DNA from: Stieleria varia
Lineage (GTDB): Bacteria; Planctomycetota; Planctomycetia; Pirellulales; Pirellulaceae
DNA length: 64,000 nt
NCBI RefSeq assembly: GCF_038443385.1
Contig: NZ_CP151726.1
Span: 5,890,001-5,954,000 of the forward strand
Reading direction: 5' to 3'
Of this stretch, positions 1 to 16,638 are shown one piece after another (positions within the stretch are counted from its first letter, which is position 1; each line of letters opens with the position of its first letter). The notes under the pieces are model-generated. The model made no database searches. It saw only the letters and a list, made by a program, of their open reading frames with translations, and had not been told where the DNA came from. The position numbers were made by a program, and so were the translations under genes.

Positions 1-1220
1 CTTAATCGTTGGTCCAGGACCGCCATGTTGACGGGAACGGATACGGTTCCATGCAGTGGTGTTAGCTGACCTTCAAGCAGTCGAATGACGGTGGTCTTGC
101 CGGACCCGTTGGGCCCCACAAGGGCGACTCGCTCGGGACCGATCAGTGAAAAAGAGAGGTTATGAATGATGGGCCTGTCAGAATCATAGCCAGCGGTAAC
201 GGCATCGAACGTTGCGACGATGCGACTGTTTGGGAGCCCGGTTGATTGGACTGTAATCGAAAGTTCATCCAGGATTTCAAGCCGTGCACGAGCTTGCTCG
301 ACGGTTTCTATCGCTTGAGCCCTTTGTCGCATGGTACGTCTTATGCGGTCGCCCTTGCTCGATTCGGCGCTGTTTTTTCTTGCACCCGACAGTATGCGTG
401 GGATGTCACCTCGGGATTGAGTTCTGGCACCGGCGGCATCTCGACGCTGCTTTCGTTCTATCGTCGTTTGGGCATCTCGCTTGACCTTGACCGCGTATCT
501 TTCCGCGTGCGCCAGATGATGTTGCGCGGCTTCCAGCTCGATCGCTTTTTGCTGGCGATAGTGACTCCAATTGCCTCCGTAGCGAGTAACGCCAATTGAC
601 GTCAGTTCGACAATCGCGTCCATCTGTTCCAACAGCTCTCGATCGTGGCTGGCAACAATCGCACCAGCTTTCCAGTTGGAGAGCAGATTGATCACCGCCT
701 CGCGTCCGGCGCGATCCAGATTGTTCGTCGGCTCATCGAGCAGCAGGAAATCAGGAGCTTGGTACAGCACGACCGCGATGCATGCCCGGGTCCACTGACC
801 TCCGGAGAGCTCGCAAAGTCGTGTGTCGGGGCGGACCTTCAGGCCAACTCGCCCCAGCGCCGCCGCTATCCGTTCTTCAAGCGTCCAGTCGGCATCCGCG
901 AGCTCGTCAATATTTGCTTGACCCGCTTCGGCTCGACGCAAGATTTCAATCGCTTTGCTGGCGCCGAAAAGATCGGCGACGGTTTCGTCTGGTTCAACTT
1001 GCACTTTCTGTTGCAGCACGCCCAACATACCAGTGACGGCAACGCCACCCGTTGCAGGCGGCAGCTCACCACTGATGAGTTTTATCAGCGTCGACTTGCC
1101 GACGCCATTTCTTCCGACCAGTCCCATTCGCTCACGACTCACACTCAGATCAAGGTTGCGAAACAGATTGTGACCGTCCGGTGTGGACCAACTGATCCCG
1201 GTCAATGTGATTTGCGACAT
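1..1220 (-). CDS. ABC-F family ATPase, C-terminus cut off by window edge
   Basis: The minus-strand frame starts at ATG 1220 and stays open to the left edge, giving at least 406 residues. Two ATP-binding cassettes are visible. The first has Walker A GRNGVGKST near residues 36-44, signature LSGGQ near residue 140, and Walker B LLLDEPTNNLD. A linker rich in Lys, Arg and Gln follows. The second Walker A, VGPNGSGKTT, lies close to the left edge. No membrane segment is present. Tandem cassettes with a charged linker and no transmembrane domain are the ABC-F layout, soluble ATPases that act on the ribosome; some protect it from antibiotics and others tune translation. Which subtype this is cannot be told. 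It is divergent from the TetR regulator, about 100 bp away, which could control it. Confidence 0.9.
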   Translation of the reverse strand, partial: MSQITLTGISWSTPDGHNLFRNLDLSVSRERMGLVGRNGVGKSTLIKLISGELPPATGGVAVTGMLGVLQQKVQVEPDETVADLFGASKAIEILRRAEAGQANIDELADADWTLEERIAAALGRVGLKVRPDTRLCELSGGQWTRACIAVVLYQAPDFLLLDEPTNNLDRAGREAVINLLSNWKAGAIVASHDRELLEQMDAIVELTSIGVTRYGGNWSHYRQQKAIELEAAQHHLAHAERYAVKVKRDAQTTIERKQRRDAAGARTQSRGDIPRILSGARKNSAESSKGDRIRRTMRQRAQAIETVEQARARLEILDELSITVQSTGLPNSRIVATFDAVTAGYDSDRPIIHNLSFSLIGPERVALVGPNGSGKTTVIRLLEGQLTPLHGTVSVPVNMAVLDQRL

Positions 1221-1321
1221 CGCTTCTACTCTTGAACAACTGTTAATAGCACGCTACAGTGCTTTTACAGCATCTCCGTCAATAATGCAACGGGACCGTG
1301 CTATTTTTCAGCAACAAGAAA

Positions 1322-1966
1322 ATGAAACAGTATGCCATGACAAAACGAAAGGCACTTGGCCGACCGACGAAGGACGAAGCGGCGGCGATTGATGTTCGCG
1401 TCCTCGATGCGGCTCGCGCACTTTTTAGCCAAAAAGGGATTGCGAACAGCTCGATCGACGAGCTTGCCGGGACACTCGGTGTTTCTAAGCACACGATCTA
1501 CCGTCGCTATGCCAGCAAGGCAAAATTGCTCGACGCGGTGGTCGAGCGAGATATCAATGCGTTTCGTGACGAGTTGAAATCGGCAGGTGCGAAAGCAACC
1601 GACGAACTTGAGGCGCTCCACCAAATGGCACTTCGGTACTTCAAGTTCGGTTCATCTCGCGATTACTCCGCGTTCTATCTTTTGGTCAGCGCCGAGGCTG
1701 TCATTTCAGCTGACCTACGCGAACGCTTAGCTGAATGGACGAAGTTTGCACTGCAACCGGTGCTGGAAGCGATTTCGTCGGCGCAGTCCGCTGGATATTT
1801 GTGCTCTGGCAGCACTGCATCGATCGGCGAAATACTCGTTGACCTATTGGAAGGTGCGAACAATCGAGTCCGTTTGCGAGATGCGACATTGAACAGCAGC
1901 CGAGCGGCGCGGAAACTGTTTGACGATCGTTGGCAAGTTTTCGTGAAGGCAATGGCGAGTGAATGA
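1322..1966 (+). CDS. TetR/AcrR family transcriptional regulator
   Basis: A 214-residue protein with an N-terminal TetR-type helix-turn-helix: VLDAARALFSQKG, then SSIDELAGTLGVSKHTIYRR at about residues 40-60, ending in the usual Y-x-x-F/Y-x-S-K pattern (YRRYASKAKLL). The remaining ~150 residues are the variable all-helical ligand-binding domain. Possible starts are GTG 1298, ATG 1322 and ATG 1337; no clear ribosome binding site decides between them, and 1322 is a compromise. It lies between a divergent ABC-F gene and a codirectional SDR gene that begins 12 bp downstream. By family precedent it represses one or both neighbours and releases DNA on binding a small molecule; the ligand is unknown. 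Confidence 0.88.
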   Translation: MKQYAMTKRKALGRPTKDEAAAIDVRVLDAARALFSQKGIANSSIDELAGTLGVSKHTIYRRYASKAKLLDAVVERDINAFRDELKSAGAKATDELEALHQMALRYFKFGSSRDYSAFYLLVSAEAVISADLRERLAEWTKFALQPVLEAISSAQSAGYLCSGSTASIGEILVDLLEGANNRVRLRDATLNSSRAARKLFDDRWQVFVKAMASE

Positions 1967-1978
1967 GGTTCGATGGTT

Positions 1979-2812
1979 ATGTCGCAACGATGGCTGATTA
2001 CGGGTAGTTCCAGAGGCATTGGGCGAGCACTTGCTGAGGGCGTGCTCAGCGCGGGGCATCGTCTCGTCGCCACGGCGCGTAAGGCTTCGCAACTTGCTGA
2101 TCTCTTAAAGCAGTTCGGTGAACAAGTACGAACGGTAGATCTGGATGTGACCGCCCCGGTGGCCGCCGAGCAAGCATTGCGAGTCGCCGTCGATGAATTT
2201 GGCGGTCTCGATGTACTGGTGAACTGTGCCGGGTACGGTAACGTGAATTCGATTGAAGACACCGATCTTGGCGAGTTTCGTCGGCAGATTGAGACGAACC
2301 TGTTTGGATCCATCATCGTCACGAAGGCGGCCATTCCCATCATGCGTCAGCAGGGTTCGGGCCATATCATTCAGTTTTCCTCCGTGGGGGGACGCATCGG
2401 TGCTCCCGGACGGGCACCCTATTCCGCAGCGAAATGGGGCGTGGAAGGATTCTCCGAAGTGCTCGCGAGCGAGATGTCGCTCGTCGGAGTCAAAGTCACC
2501 ATCATCGAACCCGGTGGGTTTCGGACAGACTTCGCAGGCTCCTCAACTTCATTGACTGCAGGTCGGCCCGAGTACGACGCCGTCGTAGGTGCTGCTGCGC
2601 GGATGCAGCGCGCGTACGACGGTCGGCAGCCTGGCGATCCGGTTCGTGCGGCACAGGTGATATTGAAAGTCGCCGCAATGGATCAGGCACCGCTGCGTTT
2701 ACCGCTGGGCAACGACGCCGTGAACGCACTGGAGCAAGCCGATCTCGCAAGATTGGAAGAGCTTCGGCGCTGGCGTGAACTGAGCATTTCGACGGACTAT
2801 CCGGAAGAATGA
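1979..2812 (+). CDS. Short-chain dehydrogenase/reductase (SDR)
   Basis: A classical SDR of 277 residues. Visible motifs are the dinucleotide-binding TGSSRGIG near the N-terminus, NCAGYG in the middle, the catalytic Ser in FSSVGG, and YSAAK with Tyr and Lys four residues apart. The extended C-terminal part after PGGFRTDF resembles the oxidoreductase/retinol-dehydrogenase-like SDR group. Arg following the glycine motif (TARKASQL) after the second strand suggests NADP(H) preference. ATG 1979 is chosen over ATG 1973 because GAGGT at 1965-1969 is then about 9 nt upstream. It forms an operon with the TetR gene (12 bp gap), so it is likely a detoxification or modification enzyme under that repressor. 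The substrate cannot be read from sequence. Confidence 0.9.
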   Translation: MSQRWLITGSSRGIGRALAEGVLSAGHRLVATARKASQLADLLKQFGEQVRTVDLDVTAPVAAEQALRVAVDEFGGLDVLVNCAGYGNVNSIEDTDLGEFRRQIETNLFGSIIVTKAAIPIMRQQGSGHIIQFSSVGGRIGAPGRAPYSAAKWGVEGFSEVLASEMSLVGVKVTIIEPGGFRTDFAGSSTSLTAGRPEYDAVVGAAARMQRAYDGRQPGDPVRAAQVILKVAAMDQAPLRLPLGNDAVNALEQADLARLEELRRWRELSISTDYPEE

Positions 2813-3096
2813 CTCCGTTGGACGCTCAGAACAATGACAGCGACTTGAAACGCTTTAACGTTGAGGAACGCAATCCCTAAAAAACCCCCTTCCCTTTTTC
2901 GCAATCCTCATCAAATCCGCGAAAGTAGCCCCCCCCGAGGAGTCGGTCGGACGTTTGTGGCCAATGGGATTCCGCTCCACCTGCTGAGAATTCATTTGCT
3001 GTCACGATTCGATCATGACGGCGGGCTCCGTTTCTTGGTACATCTCTTGGATCACGAATCGGCATCCCTCCGTTGATTGCAAGCATCTGATCCGCC

Positions 3097-4119
3097 ATGA
3101 AACTGTTTTTCAAACGATTGGCCGCCAAAAACTCAGTCGCCCAGTCCTCAGTCGCCCAGTCCTCAGTCGGCCAGTCCTCAGTCGGCCAGTCCTCAGTCGC
3201 CCCAACTGCTGCCGGTGATCGCATTCGCAGTCCGGCAATCGGATCAGGCACGCTGCGCGATGACGAGGCTTTGGCGTTGTCGCTGGACAATGTCAGCAAG
3301 AAGGCGTTTCTCACGGTGATCCGCAGCCGCGCTGACATCGGTGTGCATGCATTGCTTTCGCAACGAACAGTGATCGGACGCAACGAAAACTGCACCTTTG
3401 CGTTGCACGACTTGAAAGTCTCTGGATCACACGCCTTGATCACTCGCACCAGCGATGGCGATTTCATTCTCGAAGATCTGAAGTCGACCAACGGCACACG
3501 TGTGGGATCGCAGTTGGTCGTCGGGCAAACCGTGTTGCGAGACGGAGACAAGATATTCTTGGGAGAGACCGTGATTCGTTTTTCACTGGCCGACGAACTG
3601 GACATTCATTTTCACAACGAAGTGGCAACGTTGGTCGGGACGGATCCGTTGACGGGCCTACCATCAAAGCGGCGTTTTGACGAGTCGCTCGAGTTTGCGA
3701 TTCAGAACGCGATCAGCGGGCGTACTTCGCTCGCCGTCTTGATGATGGACATGGACGGTGTCAAACAGATCAATGATGCGCACGGTCATGCATTTGGAGC
3801 TTTTGCGATCAAGGAAACGGGTCGGTTGATCGCCCGGGTGCTCGACTCCAACGGGCAAGCCTGTCGGTTCGGCGGCGACGAGTTCACCGCTTTCCTGGCC
3901 GGGTACACTTTGCCATCCGCCTGTGCCGTCGCCGAACGAATCAGGATGGCGGTCGAATCGGCTGGTTTGGAAAAAGACGGCATCCCGCTGCATCCCACCA
4001 TCAGCATCGGCGTAGCGTGTCTTTCTGATGCCAGCACATCATCACTCGCTCTGGTCACCCGTGCGGACGAAGCTCTGTACCGAGCCAAAGCTCTAGGAAA
4101 AAATCGGGTCGTTTCATGA
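3097..4119 (+). CDS. FHA-GGDEF diguanylate cyclase
   Basis: A 340-residue protein without membrane segments. The N-terminal ~35 residues carry a Ser/Val/Gln-rich pentapeptide repeat. A forkhead-associated domain spans about residues 75-165, with IGRNENC, SGSHALI and STNGT, the expected phosphothreonine-binding positions. A GGDEF domain follows from DPLTGLPSKRRF, with MMDMDGVKQINDAHGH and an intact RFGGDEF active site. The canonical inhibitory RxxD site five residues before GGDEF is absent; an R-V-L-D lies three residues too far upstream, so product feedback may be lost. The probable role is c-di-GMP synthesis controlled by binding a phosphorylated partner, perhaps a Ser/Thr kinase substrate. 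It stands alone with intergenic sequence on both sides. Confidence 0.93.
   Translation: MKLFFKRLAAKNSVAQSSVAQSSVGQSSVGQSSVAPTAAGDRIRSPAIGSGTLRDDEALALSLDNVSKKAFLTVIRSRADIGVHALLSQRTVIGRNENCTFALHDLKVSGSHALITRTSDGDFILEDLKSTNGTRVGSQLVVGQTVLRDGDKIFLGETVIRFSLADELDIHFHNEVATLVGTDPLTGLPSKRRFDESLEFAIQNAISGRTSLAVLMMDMDGVKQINDAHGHAFGAFAIKETGRLIARVLDSNGQACRFGGDEFTAFLAGYTLPSACAVAERIRMAVESAGLEKDGIPLHPTISIGVACLSDASTSSLALVTRADEALYRAKALGKNRVVS
3133..3203 (+). repeat. In-frame 15-bp tandem repeat in the FHA-GGDEF gene
   Basis: Four full copies of tcagtcg(c/g)ccagtcc lie at 3133-3192, followed by a partial fifth. The period is five codons, so copy-number change would keep the frame and only lengthen or shorten a Ser-Val-Ala/Gly-Gln-Ser linker ahead of the FHA domain. 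Units 1-2 share one variant and units 3-4 another, as expected from recent slippage. Confidence 0.9.
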
Positions 4120-4500
4120 ACGTCGGACTGCCCTTCAACCTGTCGCTCTCAATGAATCGATGGAGCGCGAGTTGCAAGGCAGTTACTCTCGACATATCCG
4201 CCATTATCCTTCGGCGGAAACGCAAAAGCAGTTAGGAAGCGACGATCCATTTGCTAGTGCGCCTGGTAATGGATTTGCCAGAAATCCTTTTGGGCAGGAT
4301 TTCAGGCGGAATCCAATACGCTATCGAGTGATGAGGCGTTCCTGAGTAGCCGAAACTCTCTGCTGCCACCAAGCGTCGGGCTTCACCGCGACACAGGTTT
4401 CAAATCAAACGAAATATGACCGACATGGCAAAATTCAGTCTCGTCGGATTGTACAATCATAGCGATTCTACACTCCTTGACTTGACCTCCAAGATTGATC
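4120..4500. other. Intergenic, 381 bp, no gene seen
   Basis: Short open frames here (for example 4160-4345) show no recognisable motif and no ribosome binding site. No strong hairpin or repeat was seen. It probably holds the promoter for the SLOG gene that starts at 4501, but no convincing -35/-10 pair could be picked. Confidence 0.5.
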
Positions 4501-7500
4501 ATGGCTGAACCAAATGGGGCACGAGAGCAAACTCAACCTGCTGAACAAACCATCAGTCCCTCGGAAACGTCCCTGAGCCAGGGGGCGACACACGGGGGCA
4601 AACCCGGCTCCAACTACCACGTGCGCGACCGGCCCGCGTTCATCGTTGGCGTCACCGGAAACATGGATTGCACCGAACGGGAACAGATCAAGGATCAGGT
4701 GAGATGGCTATTTCGCTTTCTGAGGCGAGGAACCACGGCTCACCCGTATGATGAAGTCGTCAAAGAACTCTTGTCCGGCCTGATCCCTTTGAGTTGTCCT
4801 CATCAAGACACCGAGCGTCAGCAGGCTCCTCACCATCAACACGATCACGAACCAATGGCGGATCCGAGTTCTGTCTATCGTGAGTTCTTTGACGAATGGC
4901 CGGGACTGGATGACATTCCCATCATCGTGCTCAGCTCTCTGGCACCAGGTGCTGATCAATTGGTCGCTCAAGTCGCCTTGGAACCGGAATTTCGTGACAA
5001 CGGATTTACCCTCCGTTGTCCGCTCCCCTTTCCCGTAAATGTCTATCGCACCGCGTCCACCTTCGTCAGAAGCGATCCAACGAATCCCACACCTGAGCAA
5101 AGGGCTGCTGACAAAAAGCGGCAGCAGGACTTGAGGGACATCATTCCAAGCGACAACGACGAACGATGTTTTACCGTTGCCTTGAAATCCGACATGTCGC
5201 TTTCCACGAGTGAACTAGCCGCTAAACACACTCGCGACTCAGCCAATGCCCAACAACGACGCCTGCGGTATCAAGCTGCCGGCGAGTACATCGCCGCGTA
5301 CAGTCATCTCATGATCGCGATTTGGGATCACCAATATGACTCCGACACGACGGCGGGCACCGCAGCGATCGTCAACGCTCGCCGCACCGGCCTGACACCC
5401 GACTTGCTGCCTTCGACATCTGCGTTGCCGCTACCGCCCGATGATCCGACATTCCACATTTTCTCTAAACGTGAAAAACGCAAGGAATGCAAGGTCGCAT
5501 GCGCTCCGGATTGGTCAACCCGCTGGCTGTTCCCCAAGACTTGCCCCGAGCATTTCGGCGATCCGAATTCGTCCACCGGAAAGGCGTTGGCGGACAATAA
5601 CGCCGACTGGCAGCAGCAAGGACTGTGCATCCTGACTCGATCTACGCAATTGTTGAGAGCTTTCTGTCGTCGCAAGAACGTTGACGCCATACGAGCAGAG
5701 GAGCACCTGAATGATTTTCTCACGCACGATGGCAAGTGCTATGTCAACGAGTTGCGGTCCAGTAGCAGCGGTCTGCTGAAAAGGATCCAACGTGTGGCAG
5801 ATCTTCGTCGTCGCGCTACAAATTGCCAGTACGACGAATCAGCGAAATCAAAGGACATTCTCACCGCTCTGTTTTGGTTGACGCTGGCCGCCGCACTGAT
5901 GATCGGTGCGTCTCACCACTGGCATCCTCAAAATGTTCAACACACAGCGACGCACCATCACGATAAAGATAAGAACGAGCCCACGATTCCGCAGGTGCCC
6001 CCAGAACCTGATCCGGACTCCGGAGCCGAGACGGAAATGGAGGTTTCTGCCAGCAATGTCACTGACGTTGAGTCAAATGATAACGAGCTCACAAATGACT
6101 CCGGGGACGACGAATCACAACGCGGCGTAGGTGCAGAACCACCGATCACCGACGTCAAACCGCCACAGGAAACGGCCACAGGGGAGAAACCCGCGGGAAA
6201 CCTCGATGAGAATCCCACCGAGACCGCAGAGGACACTCCCATCGGATGGCAGGCATCACCTTGGCCGCTGATTGCGATGTTGTTTCGGGCTGTGACCGCA
6301 ATATTGGGAATCGCGATCGCCTACTTCGCCCTCCGTTACTTTCATCGCTGTCGACCGCGTCAACACGGAGCCAGTGCGGAGGACCTACGCGCGATTGCCG
6401 AAGGCTCAAGGGTGCAAATGTTATGGCACATTGCCGGGGTCGGGCAGTCGGTTGCGGCCAATTATTTGCAACGACAACGAGGTGAACTGAGCTGGATTCG
6501 CAAAACGATTCGCTCCGTCGGAATGCCCTACGAAGATACTCGATGGCTATTCGATGAGCTGAACAATTCGTTGAAAATCAACCTGCTGAAATGCGTGCGA
6601 TTCAATTGGTTGCGCGGACACGAACGCAATGCCCAATTCAACTATTTCAAGAGAACCACATCCGACTACGTGATGCATCTGCACTTCTGGCACAAGTTTG
6701 GCAGCCTGTTGGTGATTGCTGGATTGATCCTGTGCGTGATCTTTGTGGCAGCGGCGATTGTGGATACGTTTCACCACGATTCGCTTGATTTGCTCGCACA
6801 ATGGTGCTGGAGTCACTACGTGTGTTGGTTGCTGGTGCCGCCGGTGATCGCGATAACGATCCTCGGCTGGCGAGTCTGGAATAAGGAGTGGAAGGACGCG
6901 TTGCCGCAAAACATCGAGCCTTTTTTCGAACGCTGCATCCCCACCAAGGAATCCACGAACTTTGCCCACCATCCAGAAAGTTTCAGTCGACAGATGCTGG
7001 TCAATTTCTGTTGCTTCCTGCCCTCTGCTGTGATCGTCGCCGCCGTTGCATTTTTGCTTTGCGTCTTGTTTTCGCGATGGGAGATGCTGCCCAATACCGA
7101 AGCTTGGTTGATCATCCTGTCCAGCAGTCTGTTGGTCGCGGGAGGCCTCTCCATGGCTTGGCCAGAACGTCGACTTTATCCGGAATCGATCTATCAATAC
7201 GGTGCGATGGCCAACCTTTTCCAACTGGCTGCCAATCGCGTCGACCAGTTGTTCAAGGAGCTGGAGTCCGCGCATGAGATCGACCAGGACGAAGAACTGC
7301 AGCAGCGTCTGGCGAACGAACATGGATCCCAACTACCTACCGAAGAACGTGCGGATTTTAACCACAATGCCTATGTCGCAGAATTGCGAGCAGACGCTCA
7401 GAATCGAATTCAACAGCTCATCGCGGAAATCCAACAACTGTATTTTGAGCTGGGCAAAGAAGCGTTGGATGAGAATGCAGAATGGTTAATCCTGCACCGT

Positions 7501-7533
7501 GCACGACCGCTGGAACCCGTTTTGGCGGCGTGA
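4501..7533 (+). CDS. SLOG-domain protein with SLATT-like multi-pass membrane region
   Basis: A 1010-residue protein. Residues ~45-310 read as a SLOG (SMF/DprA-LOG) Rossmann-like nucleotide-binding domain: GVTGNMD at ~48-56, SLAPGADQLVA at ~146-157, then YEIAAYSHL-like and IWDH segments and GTAAIVNARRTG at ~285-297. A hydrophobic segment (~452-472) is followed by a ~100-residue acidic Pro/Glu/Asp-rich linker and another membrane helix (~588-611). The C-terminal half has about four more hydrophobic helices (~732-757, 774-795, 832-857, 868-886), a coiled coil, and the ending AEWLILHRARPLEP, which resembles SLATT effector domains. SLOG/SLATT proteins are predicted to sense NAD-derived or other nucleotide signals and act on the membrane. 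It lies 239 bp upstream of a STAND/TIR-Nudix pair on the same strand. ATG 4501 is preferred over TTG 4495. The SLOG call is fairly secure; the SLATT call is by resemblance. Confidence 0.75.
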   Translation: MAEPNGAREQTQPAEQTISPSETSLSQGATHGGKPGSNYHVRDRPAFIVGVTGNMDCTEREQIKDQVRWLFRFLRRGTTAHPYDEVVKELLSGLIPLSCPHQDTERQQAPHHQHDHEPMADPSSVYREFFDEWPGLDDIPIIVLSSLAPGADQLVAQVALEPEFRDNGFTLRCPLPFPVNVYRTASTFVRSDPTNPTPEQRAADKKRQQDLRDIIPSDNDERCFTVALKSDMSLSTSELAAKHTRDSANAQQRRLRYQAAGEYIAAYSHLMIAIWDHQYDSDTTAGTAAIVNARRTGLTPDLLPSTSALPLPPDDPTFHIFSKREKRKECKVACAPDWSTRWLFPKTCPEHFGDPNSSTGKALADNNADWQQQGLCILTRSTQLLRAFCRRKNVDAIRAEEHLNDFLTHDGKCYVNELRSSSSGLLKRIQRVADLRRRATNCQYDESAKSKDILTALFWLTLAAALMIGASHHWHPQNVQHTATHHHDKDKNEPTIPQVPPEPDPDSGAETEMEVSASNVTDVESNDNELTNDSGDDESQRGVGAEPPITDVKPPQETATGEKPAGNLDENPTETAEDTPIGWQASPWPLIAMLFRAVTAILGIAIAYFALRYFHRCRPRQHGASAEDLRAIAEGSRVQMLWHIAGVGQSVAANYLQRQRGELSWIRKTIRSVGMPYEDTRWLFDELNNSLKINLLKCVRFNWLRGHERNAQFNYFKRTTSDYVMHLHFWHKFGSLLVIAGLILCVIFVAAAIVDTFHHDSLDLLAQWCWSHYVCWLLVPPVIAITILGWRVWNKEWKDALPQNIEPFFERCIPTKESTNFAHHPESFSRQMLVNFCCFLPSAVIVAAVAFLLCVLFSRWEMLPNTEAWLIILSSSLLVAGGLSMAWPERRLYPESIYQYGAMANLFQLAANRVDQLFKELESAHEIDQDEELQQRLANEHGSQLPTEERADFNHNAYVAELRADAQNRIQQLIAEIQQLYFELGKEALDENAEWLILHRARPLEPVLAA

Positions 7534-7552
7534 GTTGATGTACGCCCACGTC

Positions 7553-7662
7553 GGAGTCTAGCCTTCAGGCGATCGAGCACTGAGATAGATTCAGGGAAAG
7601 GCGGCTTCAGACGATCGAGTACTGAGATGGATTCAGGAGTAGGCGGCTGAAGCCTGGACTCC
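7553..7662. repeat. Palindromic intergenic repeat, family A copy 1
   Basis: Outer arms at 7553-7568 (ggagtctagccttcag) and 7647-7662 are inverted repeats with two mismatches. Inside, a 42-bp unit beginning cttcag is present twice in tandem (from 7563 and from 7605). The same arms recur at 12339-12422. No ORF is carried, so this looks like a REP/MITE-type element between the SLOG gene and the STAND gene. Confidence 0.85.
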
Positions 7663-7772
7663 AACGGGGATTTCGTGATCCCTGTACCTCGTTCCGAACG
7701 CGAACGCTGACTACCAATCGGTTATAGTCTTGCCATTGCGTTTCATATCCACACTGCGGGGAAAGGCTCTCG

Positions 7773-10700
7773 ATGTCGCGGCGACTGTTTCTTTCCATGG
7801 GCTCGGACGAGTTCGAAAAGCCCGACGCTCGGTTTCCGGGATTTCGCTCCGCGATGGCGGCCTACTTGCGCCGCGCGGATTGTGCGGTCAAGGTGCAGGA
7901 GGAGTTTCGCCAAGCAGTGGAATGGGACACCGTCGAAAAACTGGCCGAGTACATCCAAGGCTGCGACGCCGTCGTCCATCTGCTGGGACAGCAGCCCGGA
8001 TCGATCGCCAGTGAGTCTGCTCGGAAAGCCTTTCTCGCCAACTCGACGCTTTTAGGCGGAAAGGAATTTCTCGCCGACTATCCAGAGCTGCAAAAAACAC
8101 TCGGCGATTGCTCCGACCTGACCTACACCCAGTGGGAAGCCTTTCTGTCGATTCACTACAGCGTGCCGCTGTTCATTTATGCGACCGACGACGCAGGCAA
8201 AACGCAGCCATCACACATCGAGCGACTGAAGTCCGCAGGAAAGCATGCCGAGTCGTTTCACAGCGATGTCGACTTGTTCGGAAAACTGATCGGTGACCTG
8301 CGAAGCATTCTGCCCGAGATCCCGGAACTCACTCAACGGATCGCGGTCTCAAAATTCTTGCAGCACGTTGCCGAAGTTTTCCTCGGTCGCGAAGCGGAAC
8401 TCGAATTCCTGGACGGTGCGTGGGACAGGCGGATCAATGTGCTGAGCCTGATCGCCTGGGGCGGTGTGGGCAAGACGTCACTGATTTGCCAGTGGATTCA
8501 ACGAAGCTTCATCGACCGCGATTGGAAAGACGACTCGGGGGCCCCGTCGTTGTGGCGGTACTTTGACTGGACGTTTTACGATCAAGGTACCGGTTCGCTG
8601 GACGACGAATCAGCCAACCGTACCGGCAACGTGGGCGATTTCTTTGAGCAGGCCCTCACGTTCTTCGGCGATCCCGACCCCAAACTCCCGGGCAAAGGAA
8701 CGCGGCTCGCGGAGCTGGTGCGGCAGCAACACACGCTACTGATCTTGGACGGCATGGAACCGCTGCAGGCGCCGCCGAACTCCAATCAAGCCGGTCAGTT
8801 GCTCGATCCCGAATTGCACAATTTGCTGGTTGCGCTCGCGCAGCAGAATCCCGGCCTGTGCCTGATCTCCAGCCGACAGCATGTCCGTGATCTGGCCGGT
8901 TTGCGGGGTCGGGCGGCGGAGATCAAGGATTTGGAAGAGCTAACGACCGAAACCGCCATCCGTCTGCTCCGCAAGATGCAGATCACCGGCACGGAGGAGG
9001 AACTGCAGGAAGCCTGCAAAAAGTTCGATTGTCACGCGCTCAGCCTGACGCTGCTCGGTCGGTTCTTGTTCGATGCCCACGGCGGCGACATTTCCCGAAT
9101 CGATCGCGTGAATCTGCACAAGGCCGATCGTCTCACGCGTCCAGAGCGACACCGCACGGCTTGGGGGGTGCTGGAGGCGTACGACGAATGGTTGCAAACA
9201 CACGGGTCCGATCCAACTCTGCTAGCCGTGCTGCGTCTGGTCGGTCTGTTCGATCGCCCTGGGTCTGTCGAATGTTTGCGCGAACTGCGATCGGGTGACG
9301 TGATCGCTGGTTTGACCGAGCCGATTCACAACATGGACCAGGATGAGTGGAACGTGTTGCTCAAACGTCTGGAGCGATCCCATCTGATCCGTCTGCGTCC
9401 TTCGCAAACTCTATCAGGACAACACGACGTCGACGCCCATCCTTTGGTGCGTGAGTACTTTGCGGAGCAACTGCGAAAGGAATCGTCAGAGGCGTTTCAG
9501 ACTGCTCACGGACGATTGTTTGACTACTTGTGCGAATCGACGGAGCATCAGCCTGATGGGATCGACGGTCTGCAACCGCTTTATCAAGCCGTAATGCATG
9601 GCTGCCTGGCTCAACGGCATGAAGAAGCGTTGTACGGCGTGTATGTCGAACGCATTCTTCGTGGCACTGGCCACTTTGGTAGCTACTATAGTTGTTACGC
9701 ACTGGGTGCTCATGGGGACGATTTGCGAGCAATGGCGTCGTTCTTTTTGTCACCATGGGCCAGCGTAGATTCGACTCTTGACCTTGAAGCTCAAGGGTTC
9801 GTTTTCGCCGAGGCAGCGGAAAGGTTAAGGTTGCTGGGGCGATACCAGGAAGCACTCGATCCATTCACAATTAGTGAGCAGATTGCAGTCGAAACTAAAT
9901 GCTGGGATGCTGCTGCAGTACGAGCGTCCAACCTCGGTATGTGCAGTTTGGCTTTGGGGCGAATTCCTGCCGCATTAGAATGCGTTCATCACGCTGTCGA
10001 GTACGCCGACAAAGGTAAAGATTCTTTCCTACGAGCAGACTTTAGAGCAAGTGTCGGGCACGCTCAACATATGGCGGGAGAGTTTGCTGAGGCGATCGAG
10101 TCATTCCGAACAGCGGAGACGCTGCATCTTGCGACTCAACCCAGCTATCCCCAGCTATACTCGTTTCAAGGCTACAACTACGGAAAGTTGCTCCTGGCAC
10201 AGGCTGAACGCTTCGTATGGAGAATCATTCTCGGTTCGATTCAACGTGGATCAAGAGACGAATCCGATCAACAACTTCGAGGAATCGTCGCTGCGGAACT
10301 GCGAGAGTCAGCCGCTCGCGTTGCGAACTTGTTTCGATGGCGTGACAGCACCGACAATCCCCTCACGATAGGACTGGATTATCTTTACCGTGCATTGGTG
10401 AACCTCTATTCAGAAATCCATCGTTCAGTGACATCACTTCCGAGTCGGTCGATCTCGGATTCTCAGGCAGTTCGGGACCTCGAAGTTGCGAGTCGCGAGC
10501 TGAAAAAGAGTGGTCACATCGAAGCCGTTCTCGAGTGTTACATTGCAACGGGAATGTGCCAAGCACTTTCAGGTGCTCCCATATCGTCGATTGCGTTGCT
10601 GGCCGAAGCTGAACAGATCGCCACTCGTGGCCCGATGCCACTCTACTTGGCGGACATCCACCTCACACGAGCAAGACTCATTGGAAGTCCGAAGGTGGAT

Positions 10701-10838
10701 GTTGAAGGTCTCAATGTGGACGTTCGGACCGAACTTGCCGAAGCCCGCCGCTTGATTGAAAAACACAAATACAACCGCCGGATGCCGGAGCTCCTGGATG
10801 CTGAAGCGGTGCTCCTTCACGGGGAAACGGACTCATGA
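7773..10838 (+). CDS. STAND NTPase: DUF4062-like N-terminus, NB-ARC/NACHT core, helical repeat C-terminus
   Basis: A 1021-residue protein in three parts. Residues 1-180 resemble the DUF4062 domain found on STAND proteins: an early strand LFLSMGSDEF, CDAVVHLLGQQPGS at 64-79, and YTQWEAFLSIHYSVPLFIY at 118-136. Residues ~200-560 are a STAND P-loop core with FLGREAEL, Walker A GGVGKT at 230-235, Walker B TLLILDGME at 321-329, an NB-ARC-like SSRQHV at 366-371 and CHALSLTLLGRFL. The rest is helical with TPR-like repeats, a likely ligand-sensing or oligomerisation arm. STAND NTPases act as signal-activated switches, and many are antiphage sensors. It is translationally coupled (ATGA) to the TIR-Nudix gene. 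Its stretch from about 9.8 kb is more A+T-rich than its 5' half, possibly marking a different origin of the repeat region. Confidence 0.85.
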   Translation: MSRRLFLSMGSDEFEKPDARFPGFRSAMAAYLRRADCAVKVQEEFRQAVEWDTVEKLAEYIQGCDAVVHLLGQQPGSIASESARKAFLANSTLLGGKEFLADYPELQKTLGDCSDLTYTQWEAFLSIHYSVPLFIYATDDAGKTQPSHIERLKSAGKHAESFHSDVDLFGKLIGDLRSILPEIPELTQRIAVSKFLQHVAEVFLGREAELEFLDGAWDRRINVLSLIAWGGVGKTSLICQWIQRSFIDRDWKDDSGAPSLWRYFDWTFYDQGTGSLDDESANRTGNVGDFFEQALTFFGDPDPKLPGKGTRLAELVRQQHTLLILDGMEPLQAPPNSNQAGQLLDPELHNLLVALAQQNPGLCLISSRQHVRDLAGLRGRAAEIKDLEELTTETAIRLLRKMQITGTEEELQEACKKFDCHALSLTLLGRFLFDAHGGDISRIDRVNLHKADRLTRPERHRTAWGVLEAYDEWLQTHGSDPTLLAVLRLVGLFDRPGSVECLRELRSGDVIAGLTEPIHNMDQDEWNVLLKRLERSHLIRLRPSQTLSGQHDVDAHPLVREYFAEQLRKESSEAFQTAHGRLFDYLCESTEHQPDGIDGLQPLYQAVMHGCLAQRHEEALYGVYVERILRGTGHFGSYYSCYALGAHGDDLRAMASFFLSPWASVDSTLDLEAQGFVFAEAAERLRLLGRYQEALDPFTISEQIAVETKCWDAAAVRASNLGMCSLALGRIPAALECVHHAVEYADKGKDSFLRADFRASVGHAQHMAGEFAEAIESFRTAETLHLATQPSYPQLYSFQGYNYGKLLLAQAERFVWRIILGSIQRGSRDESDQQLRGIVAAELRESAARVANLFRWRDSTDNPLTIGLDYLYRALVNLYSEIHRSVTSLPSRSISDSQAVRDLEVASRELKKSGHIEAVLECYIATGMCQALSGAPISSIALLAEAEQIATRGPMPLYLADIHLTRARLIGSPKVDVEGLNVDVRTELAEARRLIEKHKYNRRMPELLDAEAVLLHGETDS

Positions 10839-12202
10839 AAACCTTCATCAGCTTTTCCACTGCTGACCAATCGCCCGCCGATCAGTTTGTTGATGAACTG
10901 AGATTGTTTTACATCGATGACTTCTTCTTTTCGTCTCGAACGATGGACGAAGGCTACTGGTTGTCGCAGATCGAAGCCGAAATCGAACAGGCGAAATGGT
11001 TCTTTGTCCTGATTTCCAAGAACTCCGTCGCGTCGAAGTGGGTGCGGCGCGAAGTCGAATTGGCGATGTCGCTGCCGCATTTGAAAGGCCGTGTCGTTCC
11101 CGTCCTCCTGGAAGACACTCCGGGATGGGAGGATTTACACGAGCACATCGGTCGCTTGCAGACGTTCAATCTTTATCGCAACCGCGAAGAGTCGATGACT
11201 CGCATCATCGAAGGCATCTTTCGCCGACCACGACATCGACATCCACCCTATCGCGTGGGCGATGTGATGATCCAAGTGTTGATTCTCGCTGGCGGAAACG
11301 GCAGGACACGCTATCGGGATGGTGATGTGCTGTGTGACGGCCCGACAGCCGACACATCGAATCGTAAGTTCCGCCTGCCCGATGATGTGGCTCAAAACGC
11401 TGACGAGCGCATCTCTGAAACGAAGGCCGCGATGGATGCCAAAGGCCGAATGTTCGTCAACAATCCGCAAGTTCGTTTGAAGGACTACAGCTACGGCGGT
11501 TCGAAGGAGTCGGGCGGTTTGTCAGACAAACCACTGCGTCTAACACTCGGATGGACGGAGTATTTTCACACTCGGCTGACCAATCAAGAGCGAGCCTTCA
11601 TCTTGCCCGATGGTCAATCGATCGAGCTGAAATACGGTCGCGATCTGGCGGACCTTAGTGAGAGCGAATTGTCAAATCCGATTGCGACCAACATGAGTGT
11701 CGTCACCGCCGATGGCAAGATCTTCCTCGCGACACGGGGAAAGAAAGTCGCTTGGAATCCGGGTGAATTTCAACCCGCAGTCAGCGGAGATGGTCAGCCG
11801 GAGGATCTCGACGAAAACGGGGTTTACGATCCGTTTCACACCGCGATGCGTGAGGCACAGGAAGAATGCATCGGCGGTTACCCGGTCACACGTGACATGG
11901 TCACTTTCTTTGGGCTCGCTCGCACACGCGGAACGCAGTTTCCCTTTCTGTTCGGCGAAATCCGATTGCCCGTTGCCAGCACTGAACTGCCCCCACCGCT
12001 CAGCCCGTTCGAAGGCCATCCGTTTCCGATCGACTTCACGATCGACGGTGTCTGCGATTGGGTACGCAAGTATCACCTGGACCACTATCACGGTCGGCGC
12101 GGAGGCGTGATCGGCACAACGCTCTTTTCGCTACTCCAGTCGCTGCACTACGAATATCCCGACCAGTGGTCCGACGTCGCAAATCGGCTGCGCATTGCGT
12201 AG
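10835..12202 (+). CDS. TIR domain fused to Nudix-like hydrolase domain
   Basis: A 455-residue protein. Residues 1-130 are a TIR domain: KTFISFSTAD at the start, a BB-loop region near residue 40, FFVLISKNSVASKWV, and SKWVRRE, in which E73 occupies the catalytic Glu position of NAD-cleaving TIRs (W-V-x-x-E). Residues ~145-450 form a second domain with a Nudix-box-like core, TAMREAQEEC at ~336-345. REAQEE matches the REUXEE heart, although upstream box spacing is imperfect. Nudix enzymes often hydrolyse ADP-ribose or related NAD products, which a TIR NADase makes. It overlaps the STAND gene by 4 nt, so the STAND protein is the probable trigger. The TIR call is strong; the Nudix call is moderate and its activity is inferred. 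Confidence 0.82.
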   Translation: MKTFISFSTADQSPADQFVDELRLFYIDDFFFSSRTMDEGYWLSQIEAEIEQAKWFFVLISKNSVASKWVRREVELAMSLPHLKGRVVPVLLEDTPGWEDLHEHIGRLQTFNLYRNREESMTRIIEGIFRRPRHRHPPYRVGDVMIQVLILAGGNGRTRYRDGDVLCDGPTADTSNRKFRLPDDVAQNADERISETKAAMDAKGRMFVNNPQVRLKDYSYGGSKESGGLSDKPLRLTLGWTEYFHTRLTNQERAFILPDGQSIELKYGRDLADLSESELSNPIATNMSVVTADGKIFLATRGKKVAWNPGEFQPAVSGDGQPEDLDENGVYDPFHTAMREAQEECIGGYPVTRDMVTFFGLARTRGTQFPFLFGEIRLPVASTELPPPLSPFEGHPFPIDFTIDGVCDWVRKYHLDHYHGRRGGVIGTTLFSLLQSLHYEYPDQWSDVANRLRIA

Positions 12203-12207
12203 CGTAG

Positions 12208-12324
12208 CAGCTTGTTGATTTATTTGGTGTTACCGAAATACTGGTGAGCCGTTGGCCGTAAGGCCTCGGGCAATGCGTATGGCCCGGCCGCTCACGCGTC
12301 GCGGCTCACTAAATCAACAGGCTG
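12208..12324. repeat. Palindromic intergenic repeat, family B
   Basis: Outer arms cagcttgttgattta (12208-12222) and taaatcaacaggctg (12310-12324) are inverted repeats with one mismatch. Inner arms ggtgagccg (12243-12251) and cggctcac (12302-12309) nest inside. The unit starts six bases after the TIR-Nudix stop and may also work as an RNA hairpin terminator or processing signal. No ORF is carried. Confidence 0.8.
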
Positions 12325-12338
12325 TTAGGCCCCTGGTT

Positions 12339-12422
12339 GGAGTCTAGCCTTCAGGCGATCGAGTGCTTTAGGCGATCGGGGGCTCGTACAGTTCAGGTTT
12401 GATCGGCTGAAGCCTAGACTCC
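12339..12422. repeat. Palindromic intergenic repeat, family A copy 2
   Basis: Arms ggagtctagccttcag (12339-12354) and ctgaagcctagactcc (12407-12422) are inverted, with one mismatch. The element has the same orientation as the copy at 7553-7662, but only one degenerate inner unit. The two copies bracket the STAND and TIR-Nudix genes. Confidence 0.85.
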
Positions 12423-12721
12423 AACGGGGACAGACGACCTTGCTTTCCGAAATGACAACCTTTAGACAAATCTGGTGGTCGGCGTAAATCGTTGCTACAA
12501 TGACACTTGAGATGTTTTCGCGGGTCGCTGAAATAATCTGCCCTCCTGAAGCATCTCAGTTGAGAATCCACCCCGTTTCCGCACCATTTGTGTTTCGGCA
12601 ATGCGCCGATCCTGCCCCACCCGAGCGGAATTTGCAGCCTCCAGCGAAGCAAGAGCGATTCGCTGGTTCCGTTGCGTCCAAGAGTGACCGTCGACCGTCC
12701 CTTCTTTTTGAACGATCCATT

Positions 12722-14056
12722 ATGCTGAACCGCAGAAATCTGTTTCAAGCAATGGCAGCCACCGCTGGCGTTACTTTGGGAACTTCGCTCCTGCCCGAGC
12801 ACCTTTTGGCGTCACCGCTGACGGAATCGATACCGGGCAACACGACGCCCAAGCGGATCATCTTTTTTATGCAGAACCAAGGCTTCGACCCCAAGACGTG
12901 CATCCCAGCCGGATTGAAGAACAGCGGATCGCTGGCAAAGGTCAAGCTGCCTGAGCCGATCAGCCCTCTGGAACCCTACAAGGACCGACTGCACATCATC
13001 AACGGACTGCACGGCGTCCACACCAGTCCGTCGCATAGTGCTTTCTTTGGTGCCCTGGGTGGATACCGAGGCAGCGACGGTGTTCCACCCAGCGGTCCGA
13101 CGATCGACTACGAGCTGAGCAACGTGCTGCCTCAGACGCTGCTGCCGCACTTATGTATCGGCATGGACTCGATCGAGAACATGACGACGAAGCCCACGAT
13201 TGCGACGCTGTCCGCCAGCGGCGCGGGGCAACCGATCTTCATGCACTCCAATCCCAACCACCTCTACCAGATGCTCTACGGCGGCATCTCGACCGGCGAC
13301 ATTCGACGGCAGCACGAAGCACGATCGAGCATGATGAGCCAGATTGAAAAACTGGCGGCCGCCAAAGGTCAATCGCTGCCAAGCGGAGACCATCAACGTT
13401 ACGGCCAGTATGTCCAAGGGTTCAAGGAAGCCAACGGGCTTCGGGACCGACTGGAGACGGTTGCCGATCACCTCAGGAAGTTTGCCCCCACGGTGGACGA
13501 GCGATACACGCAGCCAAAATTCGAAACGGACTGGCATGATGTCCTGCTGGATCTTGGCATCTCGGCACTCACCTCGGGAATCACCAACACGTTGACCATC
13601 GGTTCTGGTCGTGGCGAAATCTTCGGCGCATGGAAAGGTCTGGGCGTCGATCAGCAAGGACACAACCTCGGCCACATGGATCAGCCCGACAATCCGATCT
13701 GGATCAAGATCCGTCAATACAACAGCCGCATGCTGGTCAAGATCATGGAGTCGCTGGAAAGCATCCCGGAGGGCAGCGGCACCATGATGGATCACACACT
13801 GGTCGTCTACACCAGCAACAATGCCGACAAACAACACACCAACGGTGCCAACTGGCCCGTGATGTTGCTGGGCAACTTCGATGGCGCCTTCAAGACTGGG
13901 TGCTTCACCCAACTGGACGGCAAACGTCCCATCAATGCGTTCTACACCACTCTGCTCAGAGCGGCCGGTCAGAACTGTGATCGATTCAACATGGACGACA
14001 AGATGGCCAAAAAATTCGACAGCGATACCGGTCCGGTGAAGGAACTGTTGGTGTGA
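12722..14056 (+). CDS. DUF1552 family secreted protein
   Basis: A 444-residue protein of the DUF1552 family common in planctomycetes. The start ATG 12722 gives [16 protein letters not shown], a twin-arginine-like signal (RRNLF then a hydrophobic stretch), so it is probably exported. The frame is open further upstream to 12500, but that extension is not signal-like. Conserved-looking segments include [12 protein letters not shown], a THGxH-like region around [17 protein letters not shown], and [15 protein letters not shown]. The distant resemblance of this family to sulfatase/phosphatase-fold proteins is known, but no reaction is established. It overlaps the DUF1592-type gene by 4 nt (GTGA), and such pairs recur in planctomycete genomes, suggesting a joint role, probably in polysaccharide or periplasmic metabolism. 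Confidence 0.88.
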
Positions 14057-16638
14057 ACAAGGCAACGTTTTTCATCCCGCTGGCATTCATTCTGTGTTTC
14101 GGTGTCGCGTCACAATCATCCGCGGAGACGTACATACCGGGGCAAAAGACCGGCAAAACATTCGCAAGCTTCGTCAAGCCGTTTCTAACGAGCCATTGTG
14201 TCGATTGTCACGGTGACTCGGATCCCGAAGGCGGGCTTTCGCTTCACGATCTCGGCCCCGTCGATGAAATCAACGCGGGGATTTGGAGAAGCGTTTGGGC
14301 GCAGGTTGCATTGAAAGAGATGCCGCCGGAGGACGCGGAGGAACTGGAGGTTGTGCCACGCCTGCAGTTGACCGATTGGATCGTCGACGAGCTGACCAGG
14401 GTGATGCAAGACAAAGGCGGATTCCGGGACCACTTGGACCCCAACAAAGGCAACTTCGTCGATCACGAATTGCTCTTTGGTCCGCTTCCTGAGGAAATCA
14501 AACTGGTGCCGACGTCCTCACCCGCTCGGATCTGGCGAGTGACACCGCAGGAACATATCACGCGGCTGAATGAGTTGATCAATAGCGAGCCCGAGTTCGA
14601 CCCCGCCAAGCCAGGTCTGCGAACACGAGGCGATGTCGTCCCCACCAACCACGGCGGTGAACTGAAGCTCTACTTTGGCGTCGACCGCATCATCCAGTGG
14701 CAAGGCGGAACGGTCGCCTATGCCACCTCCGTAAAAAGCGTCCCAGCCGTGTTGTCGTCGGCACGCAACCATGGCCTGGAAAACTACCCGGATTTCTACA
14801 CGGTCAACGGTGCCGAAGCGACCCAGATCATGGGCGTTGCCTCCGACATCATTCGCTACATGGCGTACGGCCCGCTCAGCATCGCACAGCCGTACCAAAT
14901 CACAGACGATCCGAAGTCCATCGCAGACAAGATGAAAGGTGACTTACGTGGCTTGCCAACAAGTCTTGTCTACAGCACCAAAGTCGTTCGTCCGCTGACG
15001 CCGGTGTACGACCTGATGAGCCAAGAAGGTTTTGATAACGATCGCCTGCGCGCCGCGGTGGATTATCTCTTTGAAGCGTTGACGTTCCGACCGCCGAATC
15101 AGAACGAGTCAGACGGCTACCTGACCATTGTCAAACAGTCCATCGACAAACTCGGCAAAGAGGACGGTGCAGTTCTTGGCCTGTCCGCCATCTTTCTCGA
15201 TCGCGACGCCCTGTTCCGTCCGGAATTGGTCAAAAATGGCAAGCCGGATGAGCATGGCCGCGTCATGATGAAAGATTGGGAACTGGGATTGGCCGTCAAT
15301 CATGCGCTGCGTTACATCAAACCTGATGAAACATTGCGGCAAGCCATCATCGGTGGCCGCATGCAAACACGGGACGATGTCAGACGGGAAGTGGAGCGGA
15401 TGCTGGCCGATGACAGTATCCGCAAACCGCGTGTGCTACGCTTCTTCCGAGACTTCTTTGACTACGACCTTGGCGGCTATATCTGCAAGGACAATCGGGC
15501 ATTGGCGGAAACGGGCGTCAGCAATCGGGGTACGGATCACTACCGCGCGATGTTCGATGCAACGGCGAGTACCGATCGGCTGATCGAGCTGATCCTGCAA
15601 GAAGACACAGACGTCTTGAAGCAACTGCTGACCACCGACAAGGTCGTGGCCACTCCGAGCGACAAGGTTTACTTTGGCAAGCAGCGAACCGCAGAGGAAA
15701 AGGCCGCGGCACAGCGGGAGGCAAAGAAACAGGCAGCCGAGAAAGCGGAGAGGGAAACAGCGGAGTTGGCTGCAGCGAAACAGGAACTCGCCGAACTGCA
15801 GGCGTTTATCGAAGCGAACTCGGGGGAGGAGAAGTCGAAACGCAAGGAGTTGGCGGAAAAGAAGCGGGCGGTCGCTGCCGCCGAGAAAAAGCTGGATGCC
15901 GCCACCAAAGGAAAGCGAGGCGGCAATGAAAACTTCAGTGTTGCCACGGCCGACCTCAATGGGCCGCCCATTTTTGCTCGCGTCAGTCATCGCAGCTTCG
16001 GTGCCGGATCAATGAAGCCCGAGCGAATTCTGGCCACAGCGCCGGCGGACCAGCGGTTGGGCATTTTGACCCATCCCAGTTGGCTCGTTTCGCATTCTGA
16101 TGCGATGGACAATCATGCCATTCGACGTGGACGTTGGATACGCGAACGTTTACTCGGTGGCGGAATTCCCGATGTCCCGATCACGGTGGACGCCATGCTG
16201 CCCGACGAGCCAAAGAACACGCTTCGGGAACGCATGCGAGTGACAAGAGAAACGTATTGCTGGACGTGCCACCAAAAAATGGACCCATTGGGACTGCCCT
16301 TTGAAATGTTCAACCACGCAGGATTGTTTCGTGAGACGGAACTTGGCAAGCCGGTCGACACCTCAGGCGAAGTCATCAACTCGGGCGATTCCAGACTTGA
16401 TGGTGAAGTCGACAACGCAATCGATTTGATCAAGCGGCTCGCCGAAAGCGAGCGTGTTGAACAAGTTTTCGTCCGACACGCTTTCCGTTTCTGGATGGGG
16501 CGCAACGAAACGCTTAACGATGCCCCGGCCTTGCAAGCCGCCTACCGAGCCTACAAGGACAACGGCGGTAGCATGAACGCGTTGATCACATCACTGCTCA
16601 CGTCCGATGCATTCCTGTATCGGACGGAGCAGGACTGA
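14053..16638 (+). CDS. Planctomycete cytochrome-like PSCyt1-DUF1587/1592/1588/1585 protein
   Basis: An 861-residue exported protein. It starts at GTG 14053, overlapping the DUF1552 stop, and has a clear signal peptide ([19 protein letters not shown]). CVDCH at residues 49-53 is a haem c-type motif of the PSCyt1 domain. The rest follows the DUF1587-DUF1592-DUF1588-DUF1585 order, including a second [12 protein letters not shown] motif near the C-terminus and the ending [11 protein letters not shown] typical of the family. A highly charged coiled coil of ~75 residues (about 15690-15920) interrupts the region between DUF1592 and DUF1588. The family is greatly expanded in planctomycetes; redox activity through haem is likely but the substrate is unknown. 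Confidence 0.9.

Follow-up and report, generated by a model that had tools for sequence, protein, structure and literature searches.

We describe a three-gene locus of the planctomycete Stieleria varia, found in a 64,000-nucleotide (nt) stretch of contig NZ_CP151726.1 (positions 5,890,001 to 5,954,000; here, the window), which comes from a single-contig genome of 9.72 Mb. The open reading frame listing of the window confirmed the three same-strand genes of the original prediction, here called A, B, and C, at the coordinates it gave:

Gene A: 4501-7533 (alternative start 4495), + strand, 1010 aa; SLOG-like N terminus, long insert, SLATT-type membrane part
Gene B: 7773-10838, + strand, 1021 aa; DUF4062-like domain, NACHT/STAND NTPase, TPR
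Gene C: 10835-12202, + strand, 455 aa; TIR-Nudix

The stop codon of B and the start codon of C share four bases, ATGA (10835-10838), as the predicted coupling of these two genes had it, and A and B are separated by 239 bp with a strong palindrome inside. The best reading of the sequence is that the locus would encode a variant abortive infection system, triggered by TIR and STAND proteins and executed by a SLOG-SLATT protein, with a logic like that of Thoeris without being Thoeris.

Domain composition of the three proteins

The following regions were distinguished in A:

4636-5400 (limits approximate), + strand: SLOG-like region, about residues 46-300, with GVTG...VLSSLAPGADQLVA, from alignment to relatives
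5836-7173, + strand: membrane part, with hydrophobic stretches starting at residues 453, 590, 736, 774, 839, and 868

For A itself, Pfam returned just three unrelated matches (E values of 0.16 to 0.84) and no match to SLATT or DUF4231, and PADLOC and NCBIfam returned none. A single-protein search with A recovered relatives in 4 of 245 other genomes of the phylum, and a profile built from the alignment of A with these relatives matched 10 of 293 and 12 of 215 other phylum genomes. We label A as SLOG-SLATT because these relatives, not A alone, match SLOG and SLATT families. On the SLOG side, A relatives match YAcAr-SLOG at 1.1e-4 (Pfam, below the cutoff), and among 12 A-family members scanned, one each matched YAcAr (7.7e-5), YpsA (0.0033), and DprA (0.003), all below the cutoff; the SLAxGAD stretch of the family aligns to DprA, a chain of which appeared in the PDB at a weak E value of 0.53. 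On the membrane side, DUF4231 exceeded the cutoff in relative L065 (3.8e-7, 30.9 bits) and in L110 (1.9e-5, 25.4 bits versus a cutoff of 24.7), a relative of A with two SLATT-type modules, in which SLATT_1 was matched at a separate place (3e-5, below the cutoff). Further matches below the cutoff were those of DUF4231 in L060 (2.2e-4) and in the full-length A relative L070 (2.4e-4) and of SLATT_1 in L117; in L108, Pfam found neither SLATT nor DUF4231. Judged from these relatives, A may consist of a SLOG domain followed by two SLATT-like modules, and its C terminus carries a conserved motif, EALxENAEWLILHRxRPLEP. The YAcAr and DUF4231 matches of the relatives make the predicted SLOG and SLATT-like character of A a reasonable reading.

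Two features define the N-terminal half of B:

7773-8321, + strand: DUF4062-like (TIR-like) domain, with E122 (codon 8136-8138) at the alignment position of the glutamate in curated DUF4062 members
8460-8477, + strand: P-loop GGVGKT, residues 230-235, with G233, K234, and T235 invariant in the alignment

B has the features of a STAND NTPase, namely, a P-loop at residue 230, a TPR region, Pfam matches to AAA_16/NACHT and TPR with weak E values, and a putative N-terminal output domain. NACHT exceeds the cutoff in B relative L039 (2.2e-6). The best structural match of B by E value is the STAND-TPR chain 6mfv, at a low TM-score, and Avs3 is also listed. Relatives with a B-type N terminus match DUF4062 at 3.5e-4 (L069) and 0.0039 (L030), both below the cutoff, and E122 of B aligns with the glutamate of DUF4062 members that exceed the cutoff in L043 and L033. 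The model of residues 1-180 has alternating strands and helices, with a predicted local distance difference test (pLDDT) score of 43 to 88 over ten-residue blocks and E122 in the helix at 118-128; of the 50 listed structural matches to the full-length B model, none is a TIR chain.

Relatives of B at 38 to 46% identity occur in metagenome-assembled genomes labeled Verrucomicrobia, Planctomycetaceae, and Lysobacterales and in three other genomes of the phylum. The N terminus is exchanged in three relatives, for trypsin (L036), HNH (L038), or caspase-HATPase-trypsin (L039), and an output role for the N terminus of B fits these swapped modules. Remote homology is a reasonable basis for the labels SLOG-SLATT for A and DUF4062-like for B, and the predicted STAND NTPase is upheld, with the P-loop and TPR seen directly. 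DUF4062 has been shown to be a TIR-like NADase family active in phage defense (PMC13174449, a preprint from May 2026), so two NADases may be encoded here. One of these might be the DUF4062-like domain of B, making B sensor and enzyme at once; the proposal that B is a phage-sensing STAND protein is changed by this possible added activity. A DUF4062 domain alone is no proof of activity, since human NWD1, NWD2, and NPHP3 did not hydrolyze NAD+ in the work reported in PMC13174449.

Two domains were recognized in C:

10835-11209, + strand: TIR domain, with E73 (codon 11051-11053) in WVRRE
11522-12019 (limits approximate), + strand: NUDT22-like Nudix domain, with REAQEE at residues 339-344 (bases 11849-11866)

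In Pfam, the TIR half matches TIR_2 at 1.3e-15 (58.4 bits versus a cutoff of 28) and ThsB_TIR at 1.6e-4 (22.5 bits versus 21.2). By analogy with SARM1, we take E73 to be the catalytic position. The ThsB models of PADLOC match C over short stretches (4.9e-5 to 0.015), and the architecture differs. The Nudix half has no Pfam match of its own, and the C sequence alone found no Nudix protein in the PDB. Two relatives of this half were found among the 245 other phylum genomes (L040 and L045). L040, aligning with the Nudix half of C, matches NUDIX at 2e-6, and a three-sequence profile of C, L040, and L045 found human NUDT22 in the PDB (5lor and 5lf9, 3e-14). The Nudix domain and the region preceding it align with NUDT22 over about 140 profile positions, and R339, E340, E343, and E344 are invariant across the three aligned rows, as befits a Nudix domain of NUDT22-like type. 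The predicted TIR-Nudix fusion was therefore recovered, the TIR domain through its own match and the Nudix domain through L040 and the NUDT22 profile.

Genomic neighborhoods of related genes

We counted A-family genes that have both SLOG and SLATT parts and both flanks inside the contig, with the S. varia genome itself excluded. The A profile matched 22 other genomes; loci at contig edges (L042, L112, L113, and L115) were dropped, and 12 loci were counted, L041, L043, L044, L059, L060, and L062 from the 293-genome search and L108, L109, L110, L111, L116, and L117 from the 215-genome search. L060 is among them even though its membrane part is barely matched by the A profile. The SLOG-only relatives of the phylum (L057, L058, L061, L114, L118, and L119) were kept apart.

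TIR_2 lies within 5 kb of the A-family gene in 7 of the 12 loci (L041, L043, L044, L059, L062, L116, and L117), or in 7 of 13 if L112 is included. The distance from TIR to the SLOG-SLATT frame is 11, 25, 113, 161, or 285 bp in five of these loci and 2.4 or 4.7 kb in the other two; the corresponding distance in the window is 3.3 kb. The number of such loci expected, given the TIR counts of these genomes, was 0.13 (Poisson-binomial P = 5e-12, with the 5-kb limit set after the data had been seen), and a ten-fold-denser distribution of TIR genes would give 1.2 (P = 2.5e-5). None of the six stretches around SLOG-only relatives of the same phylum contains TIR. DUF4062 exceeds the cutoff within 5 kb in 2 of the 12 loci (L043 and L111), against 0.024 expected (P = 2.4e-4), and 10 of the 12 have a TIR or STAND gene no more than three genes away. 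The pairing of TIR with SLOG-SLATT genes is thus far above chance, as predicted, with STAND proteins as frequent partners. The neighbors are as follows:

L041: Roc-COR-TIR, three genes from the A-family gene
L043: TIR-WD40, with a DUF4062 protein (not a STAND; it has a cyclase-like toroid) two genes away
L044 and L116: TIR
L062: TIR-kinase-FGE
L059 and L117: TIR-STAND-TPR
L060: NACHT-FGE
L110: nSTAND1, with a DUF4062 match (6.5e-4) below the cutoff and not counted as DUF4062
L111: DUF4062-NACHT-TPR gene, 156 bp upstream of the SLOG-SLATT gene
L108 and L109: no TIR or STAND neighbor recognized

In L062 (10459-13638), TIR, protein kinase, and FGE-sulfatase domains share one open frame adjoining the SLOG-SLATT gene, and at G330:C1:5259413-5271091 (L059 in part), four TIR_2 domains lie inside 12 kb adjoining the SLOG-SLATT gene.

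When co-occurrence of the neighbors was checked, as the original prediction had proposed, its refuting condition, that the genes never adjoin elsewhere, had a mixed outcome: neither the trio nor the B-C pair was found again in what was searched, and partial sets were found in L111, L043, and L069. L069 (4460-10787), on a Methylobacterium plasmid, has TIR-STAND-TPR, SLATT, and a divergent DUF4062-STAND-TPR protein side by side (FxsT and DUF4231 in the annotation), and its DUF4062-STAND protein shares 30.7% identity with B over residues 4-244. Plasmids gave no match to A itself and none to C over 80% of its length. Relatives of A were found in 9 plasmid records, and in all 4 of those opened, a TIR gene lies no more than two genes away. 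TIR, a caspase-family gene, and a SLOG-only protein cluster together in plasmid stretches L066 (6642-8483, on a Ti plasmid), L067 (6617-8986), and L068 (7002-8474); the caspase-family gene is annotated in L066 and L067, between the TIR gene and the SLOG-only gene.

Pattern scans of viral contigs with B, with C, and with the Nudix alignment found no relative. On IMG/VR contig L070 (7638-15938), about 5 kb separate a full-length A relative from a domain alignable with the N terminus of B; Pfam finds no DUF4062 in that domain. This B-like domain is joined to a methyltransferase-like part (Pfam, 0.0029), and the protein lies downstream of a gene that appears phage-tail-like by eye. Among the B relatives, L033 (3760-18171, Lysobacterales) has DUF4062-TPR, patatin, a TIR fragment, the B relative, and TIR-nSTAND1-WD40.

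Transcription units and chromosomal setting

A palindromic repeat follows both A and C:

7550-7670, no strand: first copy, 16 bp 3' of A; predicted hairpin (7553-7670) of -42.7 kcal/mol
12336-12425, no strand: second copy, 133 bp 3' of C; predicted hairpin of -44.7 kcal/mol

With up to 2 mismatches allowed, the repeat core, the 19-mer GTCTAGCCTTCAGGCGATC, has 10 genomic occurrences, of which two fall inside one element; its exact form is confined to the two window copies, which are in direct orientation and differ inside. The seven places opened outside the window all lie beside ordinary-looking genes. The repeat is likeliest a hairpin at the transcript end, in which case A and B-C would be separate transcription units. 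We also considered the palindrome as the edge of a mobile B-C cassette, an idea weakened by the 10 genome places, the ordinary neighbors, and the internal differences between the copies. Another inverted repeat (12202-12330), with 21-nt arms 87 nt apart, starts at the final base of the stop codon of C. Promoter and terminator scans gave no signal over the chance level, and an Rfam scan of window positions 1-16000 gave no match.

The G+C content of the locus (0.54 to 0.57) is inside the range of the window. By eye, the upstream flank carries TetR, SDR, and GGDEF-like genes, and the downstream flank carries a DUF1552/DUF1592-like pair, in keeping with a planctomycete, followed by Nqr and flagellar genes. 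The upstream GGDEF gene has strong matches (62 to 67%) in eight genomes of the same genus; its surroundings there (8 to 20 kb) lack the other window genes, and an empty site showing recent insertion was not obtained from them.

Proposed mechanism, alternatives, and known systems

We consider the chances about even that this is a modular abortive-infection locus acting through NAD+, with B as the sensor, B and C as NADases, and A as the membrane effector. B would sense an infection cue through its TPR part and oligomerize through its NACHT/STAND NTPase, and this clustering would activate the TIR-like NADase in its own DUF4062-like domain and, by way of the coupled partner, also the TIR enzyme of C. 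The NADase of B, C, or both would convert NAD+ to ADP-ribose or a related nucleotide, which the SLOG domain of A would bind, and the SLATT-type helices would then permeabilize the membrane. In C, the NUDT22-like Nudix domain would hydrolyze the signal, or ADP-ribose, at its diphosphate, setting a threshold or ending the signal. The domain composition, the conserved acidic residues, the B-C overlap, and the recurrent neighborhood of SLOG-SLATT, TIR, and STAND genes are the sequence basis of this scheme, from which we infer the phage trigger, the NADase activity, the identity of the signal, the gating of A, and the role of the Nudix domain, that is, every enzymatic and physiological step. A bolder and rather unlikely version has two NADases of different TIR clades, the DUF4062-like STAND and the TIR-Nudix protein, feeding one SLOG-SLATT effector while the fused Nudix domain erases the signal, which would place writer and eraser in one polypeptide. 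If the scheme is true, work on DUF4062 NADases and on TIR/SLOG signaling becomes linked, TIR and STAND sensors of the phylum gain SLOG-SLATT proteins as a recurring effector, and the TIR-NUDT22 fusion becomes a candidate for a signal enzyme that limits itself, open to testing with three genes in a laboratory host.

Several observations weigh against this scheme. The DUF4062 score of B in Pfam (0.11, 13.1 bits versus a cutoff of 24.7) is low, and the eight DUF4062 matches above the cutoff in its own genome do not include B. The structure prediction of A was unusable (mean pLDDT of 35.9). The exact trio and the B-C pair are confined to the window in what was searched, full-length C was found in 0 of 39 genomes of other relatives and 0 of 391 other genomes of the phylum, and no second TIR-NUDT22 fusion was seen. 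Three of the four opened plasmid relatives of A are SLOG-only, all three with a TIR neighbor, for which reason it may be SLOG, and not the membrane part, that carries the TIR link. No mobile or other defense genes were seen by eye among the listed window ORFs, of which those outside the locus were not scanned with a defense library, and the remainder of the window appears by eye to be ordinary chromosome.

A further point of this kind is that one ABC operon was rejected as the default, given the 239-bp gap with its palindrome; a single operon is not supported, since A is trailed by a palindrome of its own and both partners are missing beside most B relatives. This bears on the possibility, doubtful but to be taken seriously, that the locus holds two independent units, with B-C a self-sufficient NAD+-depleting suicide operon of DUF4062-like and TIR NADases and A a chance SLOG-SLATT neighbor. 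B and C overlap, whereas A ends in its own palindrome before the gap; TIR accompanies B relatives in just 1 of 10 loci (L033) and SLOG-SLATT in 0 of 10, in stretches that include three contigs under 10 kb; and neither TIR nor STAND partners were recognized beside A relatives L108 and L109. A Swarozyc protein, moreover, is described as acting alone by NAD+ depletion (PMC13174449). Against this, 10 of the 12 other A-family loci have a TIR or STAND gene close by, which in L111 is directly upstream.

It is improbable that the Nudix domain is the executioner, destroying ADP-ribose freed by the TIR domain of C, or UDP-sugars, and so draining nucleotides while A plays a minor or regulatory part. The PDB does name NUDT22 a uridine diphosphate glucose pyrophosphatase, REAQEE is intact in C, and L040 and L045, for which the 20 kb examined gave no match to TIR, DUF4062, or SLOG-SLATT, may be metabolic enzymes; but the Nudix box of C is atypical, and the TIR fusion and the SLOG neighbor favor an ADP-ribose-type product as the substrate. 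The chance is similarly slim that the locus serves stress or developmental cell-death signaling rather than phage defense. NTP-dependent conflict systems (TIR, STAND-like, and SLATT) are described as concentrated in multicellular or aggregate-forming bacteria, planctomycetes included (PMC7159879), and no other defense genes were seen by eye around the locus, whereas DUF4062 proteins act against phages (PMC13174449), the locus genes are patchily present, and plasmid and viral-contig relatives exist.

For the abortive-infection scheme, comparison with known systems can be made part by part. The Nudix domain of C differs from NUDT22 in being fused to a TIR domain. Phage sensors of the Avs/STAND type have an N-terminal effector, an NTPase, and a C-terminal repeat sensor; B resembles them in its layout, in the swapped N termini of its relatives, and in the presence of Avs3 among its structural matches, and differs in sequence family, N-terminal domain, and partner genes. 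B shares with Swarozyc and other DUF4062 proteins a DUF4062-like domain that retains the glutamate (E97 in Swarozyc), and in B this domain is followed by NACHT as in human TEP1, NWD1/2, and NPHP3; in TEP1, an active DUF4062 domain lies next to NACHT (PMC13174449). KpSwz has a winged-helix portal-binding part, whereas B has a STAND-TPR part and scores below the DUF4062 cutoff, and the main text of PMC13174449 mentions none of SLATT, SLOG, Nudix, and TPR.

In the SLOG/SLATT/TIR conflict systems, SLATT is predicted to be a membrane effector or pore, regulated by ADP-ribose or responsive to nucleotides, beside genes for TIR and other nucleotide enzymes (PMC9503650 and PMC7159879), as would be the case here; the portions of these papers surveyed describe neither the SLOG-SLATT, DUF4062-STAND, and TIR-Nudix set nor a TIR-Nudix fusion. 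The trio and the TIR-NUDT22 fusion were likewise not found described in the literature surveyed, which did not extend to the 2015 founding SLOG/SLATT paper or the operons in Figure S1G of PMC13174449. In Thoeris, ThsB signals to the SLOG domain of ThsA, which binds 3' cyclic ADP-ribose, and transmembrane (TM)-macro effectors cluster in the membrane (PMC11204291). The present locus is not Thoeris because its effector, A, lacks SIR2 and macro domains; at E values up to 1, Pfam, PADLOC, and NCBIfam matched A to none of SIR2, macro, and ThsA. Where Thoeris pairs the ThsB TIR protein with a SIR2-SLOG ThsA or a TM-macro protein, A has SLOG joined to SLATT-type helices, and the locus adds a STAND protein and a TIR domain fused to Nudix. 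The likeness is in the pairing of a TIR enzyme with a SLOG- and TM-containing protein expected to answer an NAD-derived nucleotide. The combination, and the joining of TIR to a NUDT22-like domain, were found nowhere else in what was searched; the parts and their logic are of known kinds.

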